From Parvibaculaceae bacterium (GTDB taxonomy: Bacteria; Pseudomonadota; Alphaproteobacteria; Parvibaculales; Parvibaculaceae): DNA of 41,926 nucleotides. The stretch's first letter is position 1. Each line of letters begins with the position of its first letter. Made by a program: the position numbers and the translations under genes. Below are positions 7,052 through 41,560 of the stretch, piece by piece. The notes below the pieces were generated by a model. That model was given only the letters and a program-made list of their open reading frames with translations, did no database searches and was not told where the DNA came from. Location: positions 178,244 through 220,169 of the forward strand of contig JARGNZ010000002.1 in assembly GCA_029209985.1 (NCBI GenBank). Reading direction: 5' to 3'.

Positions 7052-7087
7052 AAAGCCCGCTTCGAGAAATCGAAGCGGGCTTTGTTT
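7052..7087. terminator. Bidirectional terminator between der and the SDR gene
   Basis: A 14-base perfect stem (7052-7065 with 7070-7083; core AGCCCGCTTCGA) is closed by a GAAA tetraloop. It has T's on its right side (TTTGTTT) and A's on its left, so it can end transcription of der (+) and of the convergent purF-SDR operon (-). Confidence 0.93.
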
Positions 7088-29035: not shown

Positions 29036-30355
29036 CTACTTCTTTGAGTCGACGATCGCGTCACGACGCAAATCACGAAACTGAAGGCGAGATACCATGG
29101 ATGTTTTTTGCGAGAATAAGCTATTTTCAACGCTCTCACGTGTGATGTTGGTGCCTTGGTCATCTTTACGGTCACAAATGGCAAATAATTCAGAACCTGC
29201 TTTAGAGCGCATTGGACCAAGCACTGTGCCAGCTTTTGAGGCTTGCAATTGGCTCCGCAAAGGATCCCGCAATTGACCAGCAAGAGCAGTTTGTGGCGGG
29301 TCTACACGACCTCCAAATTTAGGGGCAAGGTCAGCCATCTGTTTACAGGTCTTGAATTGAGCTTTGAGGCGATTGGCCTTGGCATCTGCACTCGCATATT
29401 GCGCATTCGTGGCGTTTGCTGGCACAGGAAAGAGCGTGCGCAGCAGAATAAATTGGTTCTTCATTGCATTGGGGCCGGTGCCTTGTTGGGCAGCCCGAAC
29501 GTTATAAACAAAAATACTATTTGTCGTGCGGATAGGGTCTGTCACGCCGCCCAACGGGGTTGAACGGATCGCCTCCAAAGCCCTTTCAGGCAGTTGGCTT
29601 TCTGCAACCCATCCAATGTCGCCACCCCGTGCTGCAGAGGCAGACTGGGAGAATTGCGAGGCAACCGCTTGGAACGGTGCCCCTTGGCGTAATTGCTGCA
29701 CCAAACGCTCGGCACCCGCCGTCATCTCGCGCTCTTGGGCCGCATTGTCGAAGGACAAAACAAGCTCAGACAATTGGTATTGCTTTTGATCGGCATCAGC
29801 GGCCAGTCGATTGAGAATTTCGTCTACTTCATCTGCACTGACAGTAACTTGTGGGGCAAACAAACGAGCAGTCACCTTTTGCCACGCGAGGTTGGCTGTG
29901 ATCTGGCCAATGAAAGCCTCTTTGGTGACACCGGAATTGCCCAAAAGAGCAATGATTTCATCCGGCGTGCGGCCTGAGCGCGATGCAATTTGTTCAAGCG
30001 CAGAATCGATTTCTGACTGCTCCACCTTCAACTCAAGGCGCGCGAGTTCTTGGCTCTGTAGTTTCTCATCCACCAAGCTGCGAAGCACTTGTTCCTTGAG
30101 GCGCTCTACATTCTCTTTGGTCGGGCGAATACTGCCGGAAGCCACAAGCAGGCGCATCCGCTGATCAAGGTCATACTCAGAAATGACCTCATCATTTACG
30201 ATTGCCGCAATTCCTTGCACCTCCGCCGCTTGAGCGGTTGCGGTAAGGGGTGTGCCGGGCACTGACATCACCGTGAGGCCACTGAGCGCCAAGGCTGCGA
30301 AAGTAAGTCCGGTACGAGGAGAGGCAAGGTTTAGCAAACGTCTAAAGAGTGTCAT
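29036..30355 (-). CDS. surA: SurA-type periplasmic chaperone / peptidyl-prolyl isomerase
   Basis: SurA escorts unfolded outer-membrane proteins across the periplasm to the BAM complex. The protein (439 residues from this start) has a signal peptide ending near ATAQA-A and an N-terminal chaperone domain that opens with IAAIVNDEVISEYDL. One parvulin (PPIC) domain is recognisable (QYQLSELVLSF to GDIGWV). A second, C-terminal parvulin-like region is degenerate. I chose the ATG at 30355 because AGGTG lies just ahead; an ATG five codons earlier (30370) is possible. Its neighbours lptD (a known client) and pdxA are the classical set. Confidence 0.9.
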   Translation of the reverse strand: MTLFRRLLNLASPRTGLTFAALALSGLTVMSVPGTPLTATAQAAEVQGIAAIVNDEVISEYDLDQRMRLLVASGSIRPTKENVERLKEQVLRSLVDEKLQSQELARLELKVEQSEIDSALEQIASRSGRTPDEIIALLGNSGVTKEAFIGQITANLAWQKVTARLFAPQVTVSADEVDEILNRLAADADQKQYQLSELVLSFDNAAQEREMTAGAERLVQQLRQGAPFQAVASQFSQSASAARGGDIGWVAESQLPERALEAIRSTPLGGVTDPIRTTNSIFVYNVRAAQQGTGPNAMKNQFILLRTLFPVPANATNAQYASADAKANRLKAQFKTCKQMADLAPKFGGRVDPPQTALAGQLRDPLRSQLQASKAGTVLGPMRSKAGSELFAICDRKDDQGTNITRESVENSLFSQKTSMVSRLQFRDLRRDAIVDSKK

Positions 30356-30488
30356 TCTGCACCTGGTCATGAAATCTCAGCCTCACCGTGTGGGTATGCG
30401 CCGAGGCAATAAAGTGGTTGCAAGCTAAACCCCTAAATAGTTGAGAAGAGGGGATGCTAACGGGTGGGGCAATTACTTGTTAGGATCA

Positions 30489-30508
30489 GCATACTCAATT
30501 GAGTATGC
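30489..30508. promoter_or_regulatory. Perfect 20-base palindrome between lptD and surA
   Basis: GCATACTCAA (30489-30498) is followed immediately by its reverse complement TTGAGTATGC (30499-30508), with no spacer. It lies in the 181-base gap between the lptD stop and surA. There is no T-run on either side, so it looks like a dimer-bound operator rather than a terminator. A hairpin in the lptD-surA mRNA is the alternative. The rest of the gap shows no gene. Confidence 0.5.
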
Positions 30509-30551
30509 GTTTCAACATTTCCACATGGTTTGGAGCTGTTATTACGGACAA

Positions 30552-32855
30552 TTAATACGTTGTATTTTCAGTGACATCTTGAGAGAACGCCGCACCACCC
30601 AAATGCTTCAAAGAAATACGGAATATGATGGATTGTTCAGGTTGAATATCCCGGTCTTCATAGTTGCTTTCCTCGTAAGAAAGGCCAAAACCGATACATT
30701 CATCTAGGTAATCGATGCCGATTTTATTTTCGATCGAAAGGCTATCTTCCAAATCTTGACGAGTTGAACCGCTCACCGACCAATATTCAGCAAATTGGTA
30801 TTTGGCAGACGCATGGATTTCTTCGCGGTCTTGAAGCCCTGACGAGAATGTATCGCCAAATTGACCGTAAGTGAGTGAACCGCTGAGTGGACCGTAGTTG
30901 CCGCTGAGATAAACCTCATTACGGTGAATTTCCCAGCTGTTGTGATCCACACGAAAGCGGTGAGAGATTTCAAAGTTACTATTCGGGCGCCAGACAGTCG
31001 CACCGACATAGTCAGATTGCTGATCGCGCAAACCTGTTTCTTGGCTAAAGGCCGAGTTCTCTCTCATACGTAGAGTTTGACCGATCATGAAACTCGCAAA
31101 TCCACCACCTGCACTGTAGGTGGAAGCCTGCACACCAATGTTTGCCCGTGGGCCGCCTTCCCATTGATCAAGCCCGGCAAAGCGGTTGCGATCAAAAAGA
31201 TTGGAATCATCGAAGTCAAATGCAGACGAGTCTTCGTCTGGAATTTCATCCGGGTTACCGCCGTAAGGGGAGTAAATCAACTGGACGATCGGCTCAATGA
31301 TTTGGCGAGAGCCGCCCGTGGCTTGCACCAGTGGCCAGCGCCATTCAACACCCATAGACGGGAGGGCGCGCGCAACATAGTTGTCGTCCGAAAGGCTACC
31401 GTCATCAAGGGTGACATCATTCGTGTGGTAAATGTCGCCGCGCAAGCTGGCAAAGAAAGTATAGAGTTCACCAGACTCGGTGGTTGTGGGGCGTTCCCAG
31501 CCAAATGTATTGGAGAAGCGTGTGGAATTAGCGCCCTCAGTCCGGCGCAGCACCATGACATTGGTGTCGAGGGTCGTGTCGCCCCCTAGGATTTGATCAT
31601 CAAAGACATGGTGATAATTGATCAGAGGAGCCACAAAAGGAGTGGTGTCGTCGTCATCAGTGGAGAGCAAACCTTGGAAGAAGAACCCTTCGGCGCGGAG
31701 GTAATCCTCACCAAATGCCTTTTCAACATAGGCCGTAGACGTTAAGTCCGTGTCGCTACTAATGTCGAAACGACGCAAGAAAGTGTCGTCGGATGTGAGT
31801 TCCACATCCCAGCCCCAAGTCCAGTCAGACTCGGTTTTGAACGCCGCCTCACTAAAAAAGGATCCACGGAAGTTTGTGTCCGCTGGTGTGCCAGCGTCTT
31901 CTTGCGGGTTTTTCGGGAAGTTGGTTGCCACGTCGAAGGAATATTGCCCTTCATTCAGCCGATGGCGGAATTGGCCTTGATAAAGCATCCCTTGAACGCG
32001 GGTATAGCGCGGCGTGAGGGTTGCATCCATGTTAGGCTGAATAGCCCAGTAGTAGGGGAGTTGAAACTGCGTACCCAGCTCATCAGAAACCTTAAACGAC
32101 GGCGTCAAAAAGCCCGATTGACGCTCAACCGTGGGGTCGGGATGCGAGAAGAAGGGGAGATACATCACCGGGACGCCCAGAACTTCAAAAATAGCATCTT
32201 CGTAAAGAATGCGATGTTCTTCGTTGTTGTGCACTACCTTATAGGCTTTCACCTGCCAAGAAGGCGCGCGCGTCGGATCATCTTTACACACCTCACATGG
32301 GCTAAAGACCCCCTTGTGCAGCGTCGTGACGTTCCCGTCTTTGCGCTCCGCTTTACTACCAGCAAGGCGGGATTTATCCGCAAGCAGAATCGAGATGGAT
32401 TCCACAATGCCGTTTTTCATCTCGTCGGTGAGCTCAACATTGTCAGCAAAAACCACGTCCCCTGATGGCTCCACCAAGGACACATTGCCTTGTGCGCTAA
32501 CTTTGCCCGTAATTTGGTTATACGTGACCCGGTCAGCCATCAAAATGCGGGGGCCATAGACGATTTCAACATTGCCTTCAGCGGTAACAATCTGCGTGTC
32601 TTGATTGTAGACAAGCTCATCGGCTTGCATCAAAACTTCGTCGTCTTCGGAAACCGATTGCACTGTAGGAAGAGGGGCGGTCGGTGCAGCAAAAGCAGAT
32701 TGCCCGGAGGCATCGCTCAACGTAAGGCCGACAACGGCCGCACTGCCAAGTAAAAGGCGGCTTGTAAAAGGAAATGCCATCAGTGAAAAGCCGATCTGGG
32801 CGACGCTTCCCAAAAATTGGGTGCGTTTTGACCACTGTGTTTCACGATTCGACAT
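30552..32855 (-). CDS. lptD: LPS-assembly protein LptD
   Basis: LptD is the outer-membrane barrel that, with LptE, inserts lipopolysaccharide into the outer leaflet. The 767-residue protein has an N-terminal signal region and a periplasmic LptA/OstA-like domain (ADELVYNQDTQIVTAEGNVEI and ADRVTYNQITGKVSAQGNV segments). A large barrel of alternating aromatic strands follows. Markers are CEVC (an N-terminal-domain CxxC), VPVMYLPFFSHPDP, and GFLTPSF. It has three cysteines, two in CEVC and one in YLDECIG, compared with four in E. coli. The start at 32855 is preferred: GGGGAA lies ahead and a Gly-rich stretch before it looks non-coding. It follows lptG. Confidence 0.94.
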   Translation of the reverse strand: MSNRETQWSKRTQFLGSVAQIGFSLMAFPFTSRLLLGSAAVVGLTLSDASGQSAFAAPTAPLPTVQSVSEDDEVLMQADELVYNQDTQIVTAEGNVEIVYGPRILMADRVTYNQITGKVSAQGNVSLVEPSGDVVFADNVELTDEMKNGIVESISILLADKSRLAGSKAERKDGNVTTLHKGVFSPCEVCKDDPTRAPSWQVKAYKVVHNNEEHRILYEDAIFEVLGVPVMYLPFFSHPDPTVERQSGFLTPSFKVSDELGTQFQLPYYWAIQPNMDATLTPRYTRVQGMLYQGQFRHRLNEGQYSFDVATNFPKNPQEDAGTPADTNFRGSFFSEAAFKTESDWTWGWDVELTSDDTFLRRFDISSDTDLTSTAYVEKAFGEDYLRAEGFFFQGLLSTDDDDTTPFVAPLINYHHVFDDQILGGDTTLDTNVMVLRRTEGANSTRFSNTFGWERPTTTESGELYTFFASLRGDIYHTNDVTLDDGSLSDDNYVARALPSMGVEWRWPLVQATGGSRQIIEPIVQLIYSPYGGNPDEIPDEDSSAFDFDDSNLFDRNRFAGLDQWEGGPRANIGVQASTYSAGGGFASFMIGQTLRMRENSAFSQETGLRDQQSDYVGATVWRPNSNFEISHRFRVDHNSWEIHRNEVYLSGNYGPLSGSLTYGQFGDTFSSGLQDREEIHASAKYQFAEYWSVSGSTRQDLEDSLSIENKIGIDYLDECIGFGLSYEESNYEDRDIQPEQSIIFRISLKHLGGAAFSQDVTENTTY

Positions 32856-32993
32856 TAATTCCCCATTGCCCCCTAAGCCGTTACCAGAAAACACCATACC
32901 CCCGGCCATTCTCCGTCTGCCACGCGTTAACCTATACTTCTAAAGTGTCTGTGACCCATTTTCTAGGCAAAACCCAGCAATTTTCAAATTAAC

Positions 32994-38374: not shown

Positions 38375-40282
38375 TTAAGGTGCCTTTTTGCTATCTTCGA
38401 ATTTCTCCAAAAGCAGCATCCATTTTTCTTCAGCTTTCTCCAGCGCCTTTTGTGCATTGGCGCGGCCACGCGCAAAGCGCTTGGCCTTGTCAGGCTCTTG
38501 CTGAAAGAGTTTGGGGTTGGCAAGGCGACGGTCAAACTTAGCAACCTCAGCGGCAATACGTTCGACCTCTAGGCCCGCTTCATCCGCCTTTTTCTTTAGG
38601 GGAGCACGCGCCTTGCGACGGTCTGCGGCCGCTTGGCGTGCAATTTTCTTCTCGCTGTCGCCAGCCTCTGCTTTCGCCTTTTCTTTTTTGTTCTGGCTCA
38701 TGGGGCCGCGTTTACGCGCGGGATCAAGCAACCATTTGGTATAGGCGTCCAGATCATCTTCCCACGGCGTGACCGAGCCATCAGACACGAGCCAAAGGCG
38801 TTCCGCGCACGCTTCAATCAAATGTCGGTCGTGACTAATGAGAATGACGGCGCCTTCAAAGTCATTGACCGCCAGCATCAACGCATCCCGCGCTTCCATG
38901 TCTAGGTGGTTGGTTGGCTCATCGAGAATGAGAACATGGGGCTTGCTGTATGTCGCGATTGCAAAGAGCAGACGAGCTTTCTCCCCGCCAGAGAGTTGCA
39001 ATATCTTCGTGTCAGCTTTGTTGGCACCAAATCCATAGAAACCAGCCTTTGCACGCACTTGGGCGATCGTCGCATCCGGCATGATACCGCGAAAAGCTTC
39101 ATAGGGCGTGTCGTTTGCGTTCAACTCGTCCAAGTTATGTTGCGCAATATAGGCAACATTGAGCTTCTTATGCTTAAAGAGATTGCCATCAGATGTTTGC
39201 AGCCGGTCCGCAACCAATTTGGCAAAGGTCGATTTCCCGTTGCCGTTGGCACCCAAAAGGGCAATCCGGTCATCTTGGTCAATCCGCAGATCCAGATTGC
39301 GCAAGATGGGTTTGCCTTCTTCGTAAGAGACGCTGGCTTTTTCCATCCGAATGATCGGCGAAGCAAGGGCGCGTTCCGCAAAAGGAAAATGGAACGGTGC
39401 AATACGTTCTTCCACGATAGAAGCTGGAGGAGCCATTTTCTCCAATGCCTTCACACGCGACTGGGCTTGTTTGGCTTTACTGGCTTTCGCTTTGAAGCGC
39501 TCCACAAAAGCTTCCATGTGGCGGCGTGCGTCTTCTTGTTTTTTCCGCTGAGACATTTGCTGCATCAGGTTTTCACGCCGTTGGCGTTCAAACCGCTCAA
39601 ACCCACCTGAGTAGTAAGTCAGCTTGAGTTGGTCCAAATGCAGAATGCCCGTGACAGAGCGGTTCAACAGATCCCGGTCGTGACTAACAATAATGACCGT
39701 ATAGGGATAGGAACGCAGAAAGCTCTCAAGCCAAATCGCCCCTTCAAGGTCAAGGTAGTTGGTCGGCTCATCAAGGAGCAGAATATCAGGCTCGGAAAAC
39801 AGCATGGCCGCAAGCGCCACCCGCATGCGCCACCCGCCAGAATAATCCGAGCAAGGCCGTGACTGCGTATCTTCTGGAAATCCTAAGCCTGCCAAAATAG
39901 CCGCCGCTTTGGCAGGCATGCTGTGTGCACCCATATCTGCTAGACGGGTCTGAATTTCGGCGATCCTGTGCGGATCGGTCGCAGTCTCTGATTCCTGCAT
40001 TAGAGCATGGCGCTCTTCATGGGCTTCCAAGACAAAGTCGATCAAACTGGTCTGCGTACCAGGCGCTTCTTGCGCAACTTGCCCCATGGTGGCTTTTTTG
40101 GGCAAGGTCACAGAGCCTGATTCTGGCGCAATATCGCCAGAAATCAGCCGTAAAAGGGTGGACTTGCCAGCCCCATTACGCCCAATAAGGCCCACTTTGT
40201 GGCCCTTTGGGATAGCGGCGGTCGCTTGCTCGAACAGCGCCCGGCCTTCAATTCGGTAGGTGAGATCATTAATATGTAACAT
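38375..40282 (-). CDS. ABC-F family ATPase (YheS-like)
   Basis: A 635-residue protein with two ABC domains and no membrane segments, as in ABC-F translation factors that act on the ribosome. N-domain: Walker [10 protein letters not shown] (near residue 34), signature YSGGWRMR, Walker [16 protein letters not shown] charged P-site-interaction linker (about residues 230-275, rich in R, K, Q and E) follows. C-domain: [33 protein letters not shown] Lys/Ala-rich coiled-coil tail (about 530-630) resembles YheS/Uup. The precise sub-family cannot be fixed by eye; resistance-type members cannot be excluded, but the core-genome context favours a housekeeping role. Confidence 0.9.
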
Positions 40283-40856: not shown

Positions 40857-40896
40857 GAAAAGCCCTCCGGAGCATATGCGCCGGGGGGCTTTTTTA
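40857..40896. terminator. Terminator between ndk and purN
   Basis: AGCCC-T-CCGG (40861-40870) pairs with CCGG-G-GGGCT (40881-40890), with one T-G pair and a 10-base loop. About six T's follow on the plus strand and A's precede it, so it can also serve the convergent purM-purN transcript. Confidence 0.9.
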
Positions 40897-40915: not shown

Positions 40916-41560
40916 CTACTGCGGGTGGCTCAGCACTGGCGCTTCTTCGGTTTCGTCTAGTCCTGAAAAGACAACTTTCTCACCCACCACACGGGCCTTG
41001 CCTTCTGCGACTAATTTCAGCGCGAGGGGATAGATTTTATGCTCTGCCACTAAAATACGCGCGGCGAGGGTGCTGGCTGTGTCATCACTATGCACAGGGA
41101 CCGCAGCTTGAGCCACGATCGGGCCATCATCCATTTCTGCACGCACAAAATGCACCGTACAGCCACTAATGCGCACCCCGGCTTCAATAGAGCGTTCATG
41201 CACATGCAGCCCCTTAAACGACGGCAACAGGGAAGGGTGAATGTTAAGCTGCTTATTGCGCCACTTCTCAACAAATCCATCGGTCAGAATGCGCATGAAG
41301 CCCGCAGAACAAATGAGTTCGACGCCAGCGGCTTGCAGGGCCTCATCTAGTGCCCCGTCAAAACTTTCGCGGTCTTCAAAGTCTTTGTGATTGATAACCT
41401 GATGGGGAATGCCCGCCGCTTCTGCCAACTCCAAACCACCCACGTTGGGGCGGTTGGAAATCACAGTCACAATCTCAGCAGGGAAATCGGCTTCCGCACA
41501 AGCATCTATAAGGGCTTGCAGGTTACTTCCGCGCCCGGAAATGAGGACACCAACCTTCAT
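40916..41560 (-). CDS. purN: Phosphoribosylglycinamide formyltransferase
   Basis: PurN formylates GAR with 10-formyl-tetrahydrofolate in purine synthesis. The 214 residues begin with MKVGVLISGRGSNLQALIDAC and carry the catalytic trio N106, H108 and D144 in NIHPSLLPSFKGLH and AEMDDGPIVAQ. The numbering agrees with the E. coli enzyme. The start overlaps the purM stop by 4 bases (ATGA), so the two are coupled. Together with purF and gmk it gives the window a purine theme, though they are separate transcripts. Confidence 0.97.
   Translation of the reverse strand: MKVGVLISGRGSNLQALIDACAEADFPAEIVTVISNRPNVGGLELAEAAGIPHQVINHKDFEDRESFDGALDEALQAAGVELICSAGFMRILTDGFVEKWRNKQLNIHPSLLPSFKGLHVHERSIEAGVRISGCTVHFVRAEMDDGPIVAQAAVPVHSDDTASTLAARILVAEHKIYPLALKLVAEGKARVVGEKVVFSGLDETEEAPVLSHPQ

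Follow-up and report, generated by a model that had tools for sequence, protein, structure and literature searches.

The window analysed here, a stretch of 41,926 nucleotides from a genome of the Parvibaculaceae, contains the alphaproteobacterial gene cluster lptG-lptD-surA-pdxA, all on the minus strand. The order lptD-surA-pdxA is the same as in the imp(lptD)-surA-pdxA-ksgA operon of E. coli, and the gene behind pdxA is assumed, by its position, to be ksgA/rsmA. lptD and surA were assigned from their best NCBIfam matches, both of which fall under the curated cut-offs, and the two genes follow one another as expected. A search for surA returned a match in 60 of 61 genomes, our own included, and the five named relatives with a match carry the labels Rhodobiaceae, Rhodospirillales, Rhodospirillaceae or Alphaproteobacteria. 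In the feature list below and throughout, the sister species is the only other available genome of the genus (70% complete), and the family set of 37 consists of our genome and the 36 members returned by a genome search (loci L002-L031 and L060-L066).

29036..30370, minus strand: surA (periplasmic peptidyl-prolyl isomerase), served by the predicted promoter; NCBIfam SurA, E 1.9e-28, below the curated cut-off
30371..30551, minus strand: lptD-surA intergenic gap of 181 bp, with the promoter and a predicted leader of ~110 nt (start inferred near 30481)
30488..30493, minus strand: predicted -10 box of the surA promoter, TATGCT; separated from the -35 box by 16 bases in 37/37 family gaps; unchanged in the sister species
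30489..30508, no strand: perfect 20-base palindrome; read towards surA, 15 of the 16 spacer bases belong to it, together with the first five of the -10 box
30510..30515, minus strand: predicted -35 box of the surA promoter, TTGAAA; found by consensus scan; TTGA in 37/37 family gaps; unchanged in the sister species
30552..32909, minus strand: lptD, the upstream gene; NCBIfam LptD, E 2.8e-52, below the curated cut-off

The palindrome, its chance expectation and its copies

An initial annotation of this DNA had placed a perfect 20-base palindrome between lptD and surA, and we confirmed that the sequence at 30489-30508, GCATACTCAATTGAGTATGC, is identical to its own reverse complement. It begins 43 bases past the lptD stop codon, ends 118 bases ahead of the surA start and is the longest spacer-free palindrome of the window, the runner-up having arms of 7 bases. 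Base composition predicts ~0.04 palindromes with arms of at least 10 bases for the window, 0.33 for 350 kb and ~2.9 for the 3.09-Mb genome, and a third-order Markov model gave ~0.08 per window (5 cases in 60 simulated windows). The same annotation had called such a palindrome very unlikely by chance in one short gap. This holds for the lptD-surA gap alone, where the composition-based chance is ~0.00015, but with ~2.9 expected genome-wide the 20-mer is ordinary for a genome scan, and one such sequence per genome requires no special cause.

We also counted perfect palindromes in 350,171 bases of our own genome. This sample is non-random: with N runs removed, it comprises the window, and with it the 20-mer, plus 16 stretches that make up the remainder of the window's contig, two contigs picked for the core 10-mer described below and one further stretch. 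Palindromes with arms of 6, 7, 8, 9 and 10 bases numbered 43, 16, 2, 0 and 1, against third-order Markov means of 71.3, 17.7, 5.3, 0.8 and 0.5 for the same bases (10 simulations), so that the sample holds no enrichment of palindromes over the Markov means.

The initial annotation had proposed a genome-wide search for the 20-mer and for its inner 10 bases, CTCAATTGAG, and had named hits scattered at random or lying mainly inside genes as evidence against a regulatory role. We found the 20-mer as a single copy in the 3.09-Mb genome, even when 3 mismatches were allowed; at the same threshold, 60 relatives yielded one site each in four genomes (G001, G016, G038 and G052), and only the G001 site is at the same locus. 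The inner 14-mer, with 2 mismatches allowed, occurred at 3 sites in our genome as compared to 7 for a reversed control, and the core 10-mer at 4 sites as compared to 2 for its control. Of these four core sites, one is at surA and one precedes panB (2334-2343, the second exact copy in the window, as the annotation had reported); a third precedes an aroK-like gene, and the fourth spans the stop codon of a CobB-like gene, these last two genes being named by eye from their translations. By length alone, ~0.04 exact copies would be expected per window and 3 per genome; as 2 and 4 were found, the pair of exact cores within 42 kb is uncommon and the genome-wide total is not. A shuffle control that allowed at most 1 mismatch (1.49 expected; 49 of 100 shuffles reached 2) is no test of two exact copies.

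Three of the four core sites are intergenic, compared with ~12% of the sampled sequence, a contrast that is suggestive but post hoc and is biased by the choice of contigs for the sample. The search thus returned mostly intergenic core sites, and the pattern of scattered or mainly genic hits was not cleanly observed, but the 20-mer stands alone and one core overlaps a stop codon. No shared flanks around the four sites were seen by eye. The sister species also lacks the core at the aroK-like gene, and the one copy it has falls within a TetR-like reading frame (named by eye), so the core site beyond surA that is comparable between the two species does not survive. We rejected a regulon of the core on this set of four sites with no common flanks, one on a stop codon and the aroK-side site lost in the sister species; the 10-mer does not define a convincing regulon.

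Other inverted repeats were observed in the window. A 32-base imperfect palindrome at 2323-2354, with arms 84% complementary, is centred on the second copy of CTCAATTGAG and sits between a hairpin followed by T's (2214-2242) and panB. No comparable repeat was found in the stretch searched upstream of panB in two relatives of other genera, where one locus held one short imperfect inverted repeat, and a 660-base query from the panB region gave no match in the 70% complete genome of the sister species. At 40858-40893, an inverted repeat with 22-nt arms (91% complementary) ends in GGGGGGCTTTT, is terminator-like and apparently lies between the long minus-strand frames 38375-40282 and 40916-41560. 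A perfect 14-bp stem with a 4-base loop at 7052-7083 (AAAGCCCGCTTCGA / TCGAAGCGGGCTTT) lies between a plus-strand and a minus-strand frame and is perhaps a shared terminator.

A predicted surA promoter beneath the palindrome

A consensus scan of a 1.2-kb region returned one promoter-like site, TTGAAA-N16-TATGCT on the minus strand, a result that is weak by itself as 1.2 sites are expected by shuffling. Across the family, the pattern TTGANN-N16-TATNNT was present in the lptD-surA gap of all 37 genomes (30/30 family loci with lptD and surA, and the 7 remaining family members). When all 37 gaps were shuffled 100 times with dinucleotides preserved, on average 0.06 of 37 carried it, and in no round more than 1. 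The gap in this test runs from the lptD stop codon to the start of the surA alignment and often includes some signal-peptide coding sequence. We tightened the pattern to this form after a looser scan, which had given extra matches in L010, L011 and L017, and applied the same form to the shuffles. Within the 37 gaps, the pattern was found at no other spacer length from 10 to 24 and, for spacers of 14-19, not at all on the opposite strand; L010 holds a second pattern, TTGAAA-N18-TATTTT, that extends beyond its defined gap. The family comparison therefore makes the promoter call strong, even though the consensus scan alone is weak, and the palindrome coincides with this predicted surA promoter.

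Column counts over the 37 gaps showed TTGA, TAT and the final T to be invariant, as the pattern requires, and also revealed conservation beyond it: a G precedes the -35 box in 34/37 gaps and the -10 box in 33/37, and a G follows the -10 box in 35/37. At its fifth position the -35 box has T in 33 gaps, A in 4 and never C, and the -10 box takes the form TATTCT, TATTGT or TATGCT. The spacing stays at 16 bases despite wide variation in the length of the gap, in how far the promoter lies from the lptD stop codon and in the letters of the spacer. Outside the family, where 24 genomes were available and 13 were compared (one of the other 11 is without a surA match), the pattern lay between lptD and surA in one genome (L074), and an upstream lptD could be identified in 6 of the 13; a match in L067 falls inside surA. 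In the intergenic sample of our own genome, TTGANN-TATNNT pairs were not visibly enriched at spacings of 16 and 17 (2 and 1 sites, which are small numbers).

The arrangement resembles that of promoters recognised by the alphaproteobacterial primary sigma factor (sigma-70/SigA). For R. etli, the primary-sigma consensus is given as CTTGAC-N16-23-TATNNT (PMC4943231), and the elements at surA agree with it in the TTGA of the -35 box (37/37, as the pattern requires, and related to TTGAC), in the TATNNT of the -10 box and in a spacer of 16 bases, which also falls within the E. coli range of 15-19. They differ from it in the fifth base of the -35 box, which makes TTGAA or TTGAT of TTGAC. They also keep the T at -7, in contrast to the majority of alphaproteobacterial sigma-70 promoters in one study (PMC8407463). 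In a literature search we recognised no account of this surA promoter, which is not proof of absence.

Based on these comparisons, primary-sigma RNA polymerase would start transcription near 30481, independently of lptD, and the transcript would consist of a leader of ~110 nt, surA and probably pdxA behind it. In E. coli, sigma-E induces the imp-surA-pdxA operon, perhaps by an indirect route, as an upstream sigma-E consensus site was not found (PMC2731931); here, by contrast, a conserved predicted promoter stands between lptD and surA. Within the predicted leader, at 30380-30407 on the minus strand and just ahead of surA, we observed that GCCTC and GAGGC flank a stretch of ~18 bases; the stretch differs strongly between the two congeners, and GCCTC and GAGGC are both kept. 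The GAGG could be a ribosome-binding site, and the pair might mask it; the predicted leader folds of the two congeners disagree on whether GCCTC and GAGGC pair. As a candidate on its own, RNA leader structure downstream of the promoter was rejected, since the folds were no better than those of shuffles (z -0.9 in our genome, -0.3 in the sister species).

Promoter boxes, symmetry and competing explanations

To separate the palindrome from the promoter, we compared how each fares among relatives. The gap is 88.6% identical to that of the sister species where the two align (6 positions are gapped), as compared to 79.1% for surA coding DNA. All 12 box positions are unchanged between the congeners, and 2 spacer positions differ. 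The 20-mer itself is identical at 18 of 20 positions, with both differences in the left arm and uncompensated: one breaks complementarity outright, and the other puts a T opposite a G, which pairs only in RNA. The sister species thus keeps 8 of the 10 complementary positions, a single comparison on which any statement about gain or loss of the symmetry rests. In the same register, the other 35 family genomes have 0-5 of 10 complementary positions, with a tallied mean of 2.2 against 2.5 by chance. Selection thus visibly maintains the two boxes and the distance between them, and the dyad is not maintained.

From these data, we consider it quite likely that the palindrome is a chance coincidence lying over a sigma-70-type surA promoter, TTGAAA-N16-TATGCT, on the minus strand. 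Judged by its conservation, this is a real regulatory site, and the conserved part of it appears to be an ordinary promoter. In the surA direction, the right arm, TTGAGTATGC, would be under constraint through its share in the promoter, namely most of the -10 box and the conserved base that precedes it, and the left arm would be freely evolving spacer that in our species came by chance to mirror the right arm. Its symmetry would then carry no function of its own.

We next weighed whether the palindrome could serve as an operator private to the genus or species, at which a dimeric repressor bound over the spacer and the -10 box would block RNA polymerase at the surA promoter. Overlap with the spacer and -10 box is a classic position for a repressor, and a perfect dyad of operator size lies across exactly these elements, with a chance of only 0.00015 for this gap, 8 of 10 complementary positions retained in the sister species, three of four core sites intergenic and two exact cores in one window. 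Even so, we regard an operator as improbable: the 20-mer has no second site in the genome at 3 mismatches, the inner 14-mer is rarer than its reversed control, and the genes that flank the palindrome are lptD and surA, with no adjacent regulator gene. The relatives point the same way, as the left arm changed without compensation in the sister species while the promoter boxes stayed, the core was lost there at the aroK-like gene with its sole copy within a reading frame, and the remaining 35 members of the family show a symmetry of 0-5 of 10. A recently arisen, genus-specific form of such a repressor site on the surA promoter seems slightly less probable still. The suggestion in the initial annotation that an envelope-stress regulator binds the palindrome is left without support by the single copy at 3 mismatches and the broken symmetry in the sister species.

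A different kind of envelope control is known for surA in another alphaproteobacterium. In Rhodobacter sphaeroides, surA is activated by CenR, which acts at a TGA-N8-TGA type of site, and the authors report this repeat upstream of surA in four other alphaproteobacteria (PMC9275681). As predicted here, surA has a promoter of its own in that species, a regulated one (PMC9275681). The two cases differ in that the CenR site is a direct repeat and no palindrome, and the exact site was not found at our locus. We therefore asked whether surA might be under the CenKR envelope two-component system through a direct repeat near the promoter, and consider this very unlikely. A CenR-like site one letter off the repeat, TGT-N8-TGA, seen by eye, overlaps the -35 box in both the window and the sister species, but its TGT bases are not conserved in the family. 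TGA-N9-TGA, whose spacing is one base longer than that of CenR sites, is found near the promoter in 12/37 family regions, on the strand of surA; exact TGA-N8-TGA is absent from our genome and the sister species (in the stretch that starts 120 bases ahead of the -35 box and ends 60 bases past the -10 box) and is present in 5/37 family members at scattered places. These observations leave room for a degenerate CenR site near the surA promoter. 

EcfG-type stress promoters have a GGAAC -35 element. No GGAAC was found on the surA strand of the gap in our genome or in the sister species, nor was GANTC found in either gap; TTAA occurs once, in the sister species only.

The poorest prospects among the explanations considered belong to an RNA hairpin acting in processing or attenuation of transcripts that read through from lptD into surA, which we judge highly unlikely. 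As RNA, the 20-mer folds at -10.5 kcal/mol, and the fold of the complete 181-nt gap of our genome is modestly more stable than those of shuffled versions (z -2.0; equalled by 6 of 200 shuffles). The hairpin of the sister species, however, reaches only -3.5 kcal/mol and contains a mismatch, so that RNA structure, which the initial annotation had also offered as the role of the palindrome, gains no support, and a transcript starting at the surA promoter itself would exclude the hairpin. No T-run follows the palindrome on either strand, a terminator scan returned nothing at the palindrome, and no Rfam family matched anywhere in the window at gathering thresholds; each of these absences also counts against an RNA hairpin. 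An intrinsic terminator, meaning a G+C-rich hairpin followed by a T-run, was rejected for want of both the T-run and a scan match, in agreement with the earlier view that the palindrome is not a simple terminator.

Meaning for surA expression

A striking perfect palindrome can be incidental, while evolution keeps an ordinary promoter beneath it. For genome scans, this is a reminder that about three perfect 20-base palindromes are expected in a genome of this size and composition. If the palindrome were a recent operator after all, this lineage would have gained private control of an outer-membrane chaperone atop a family-wide promoter. On the preferred reading, that of a chance palindrome over a conserved promoter, the comparison of 37 genomes places the surA promoter of the family, and predicts that expression of surA independently of lptD is possible.
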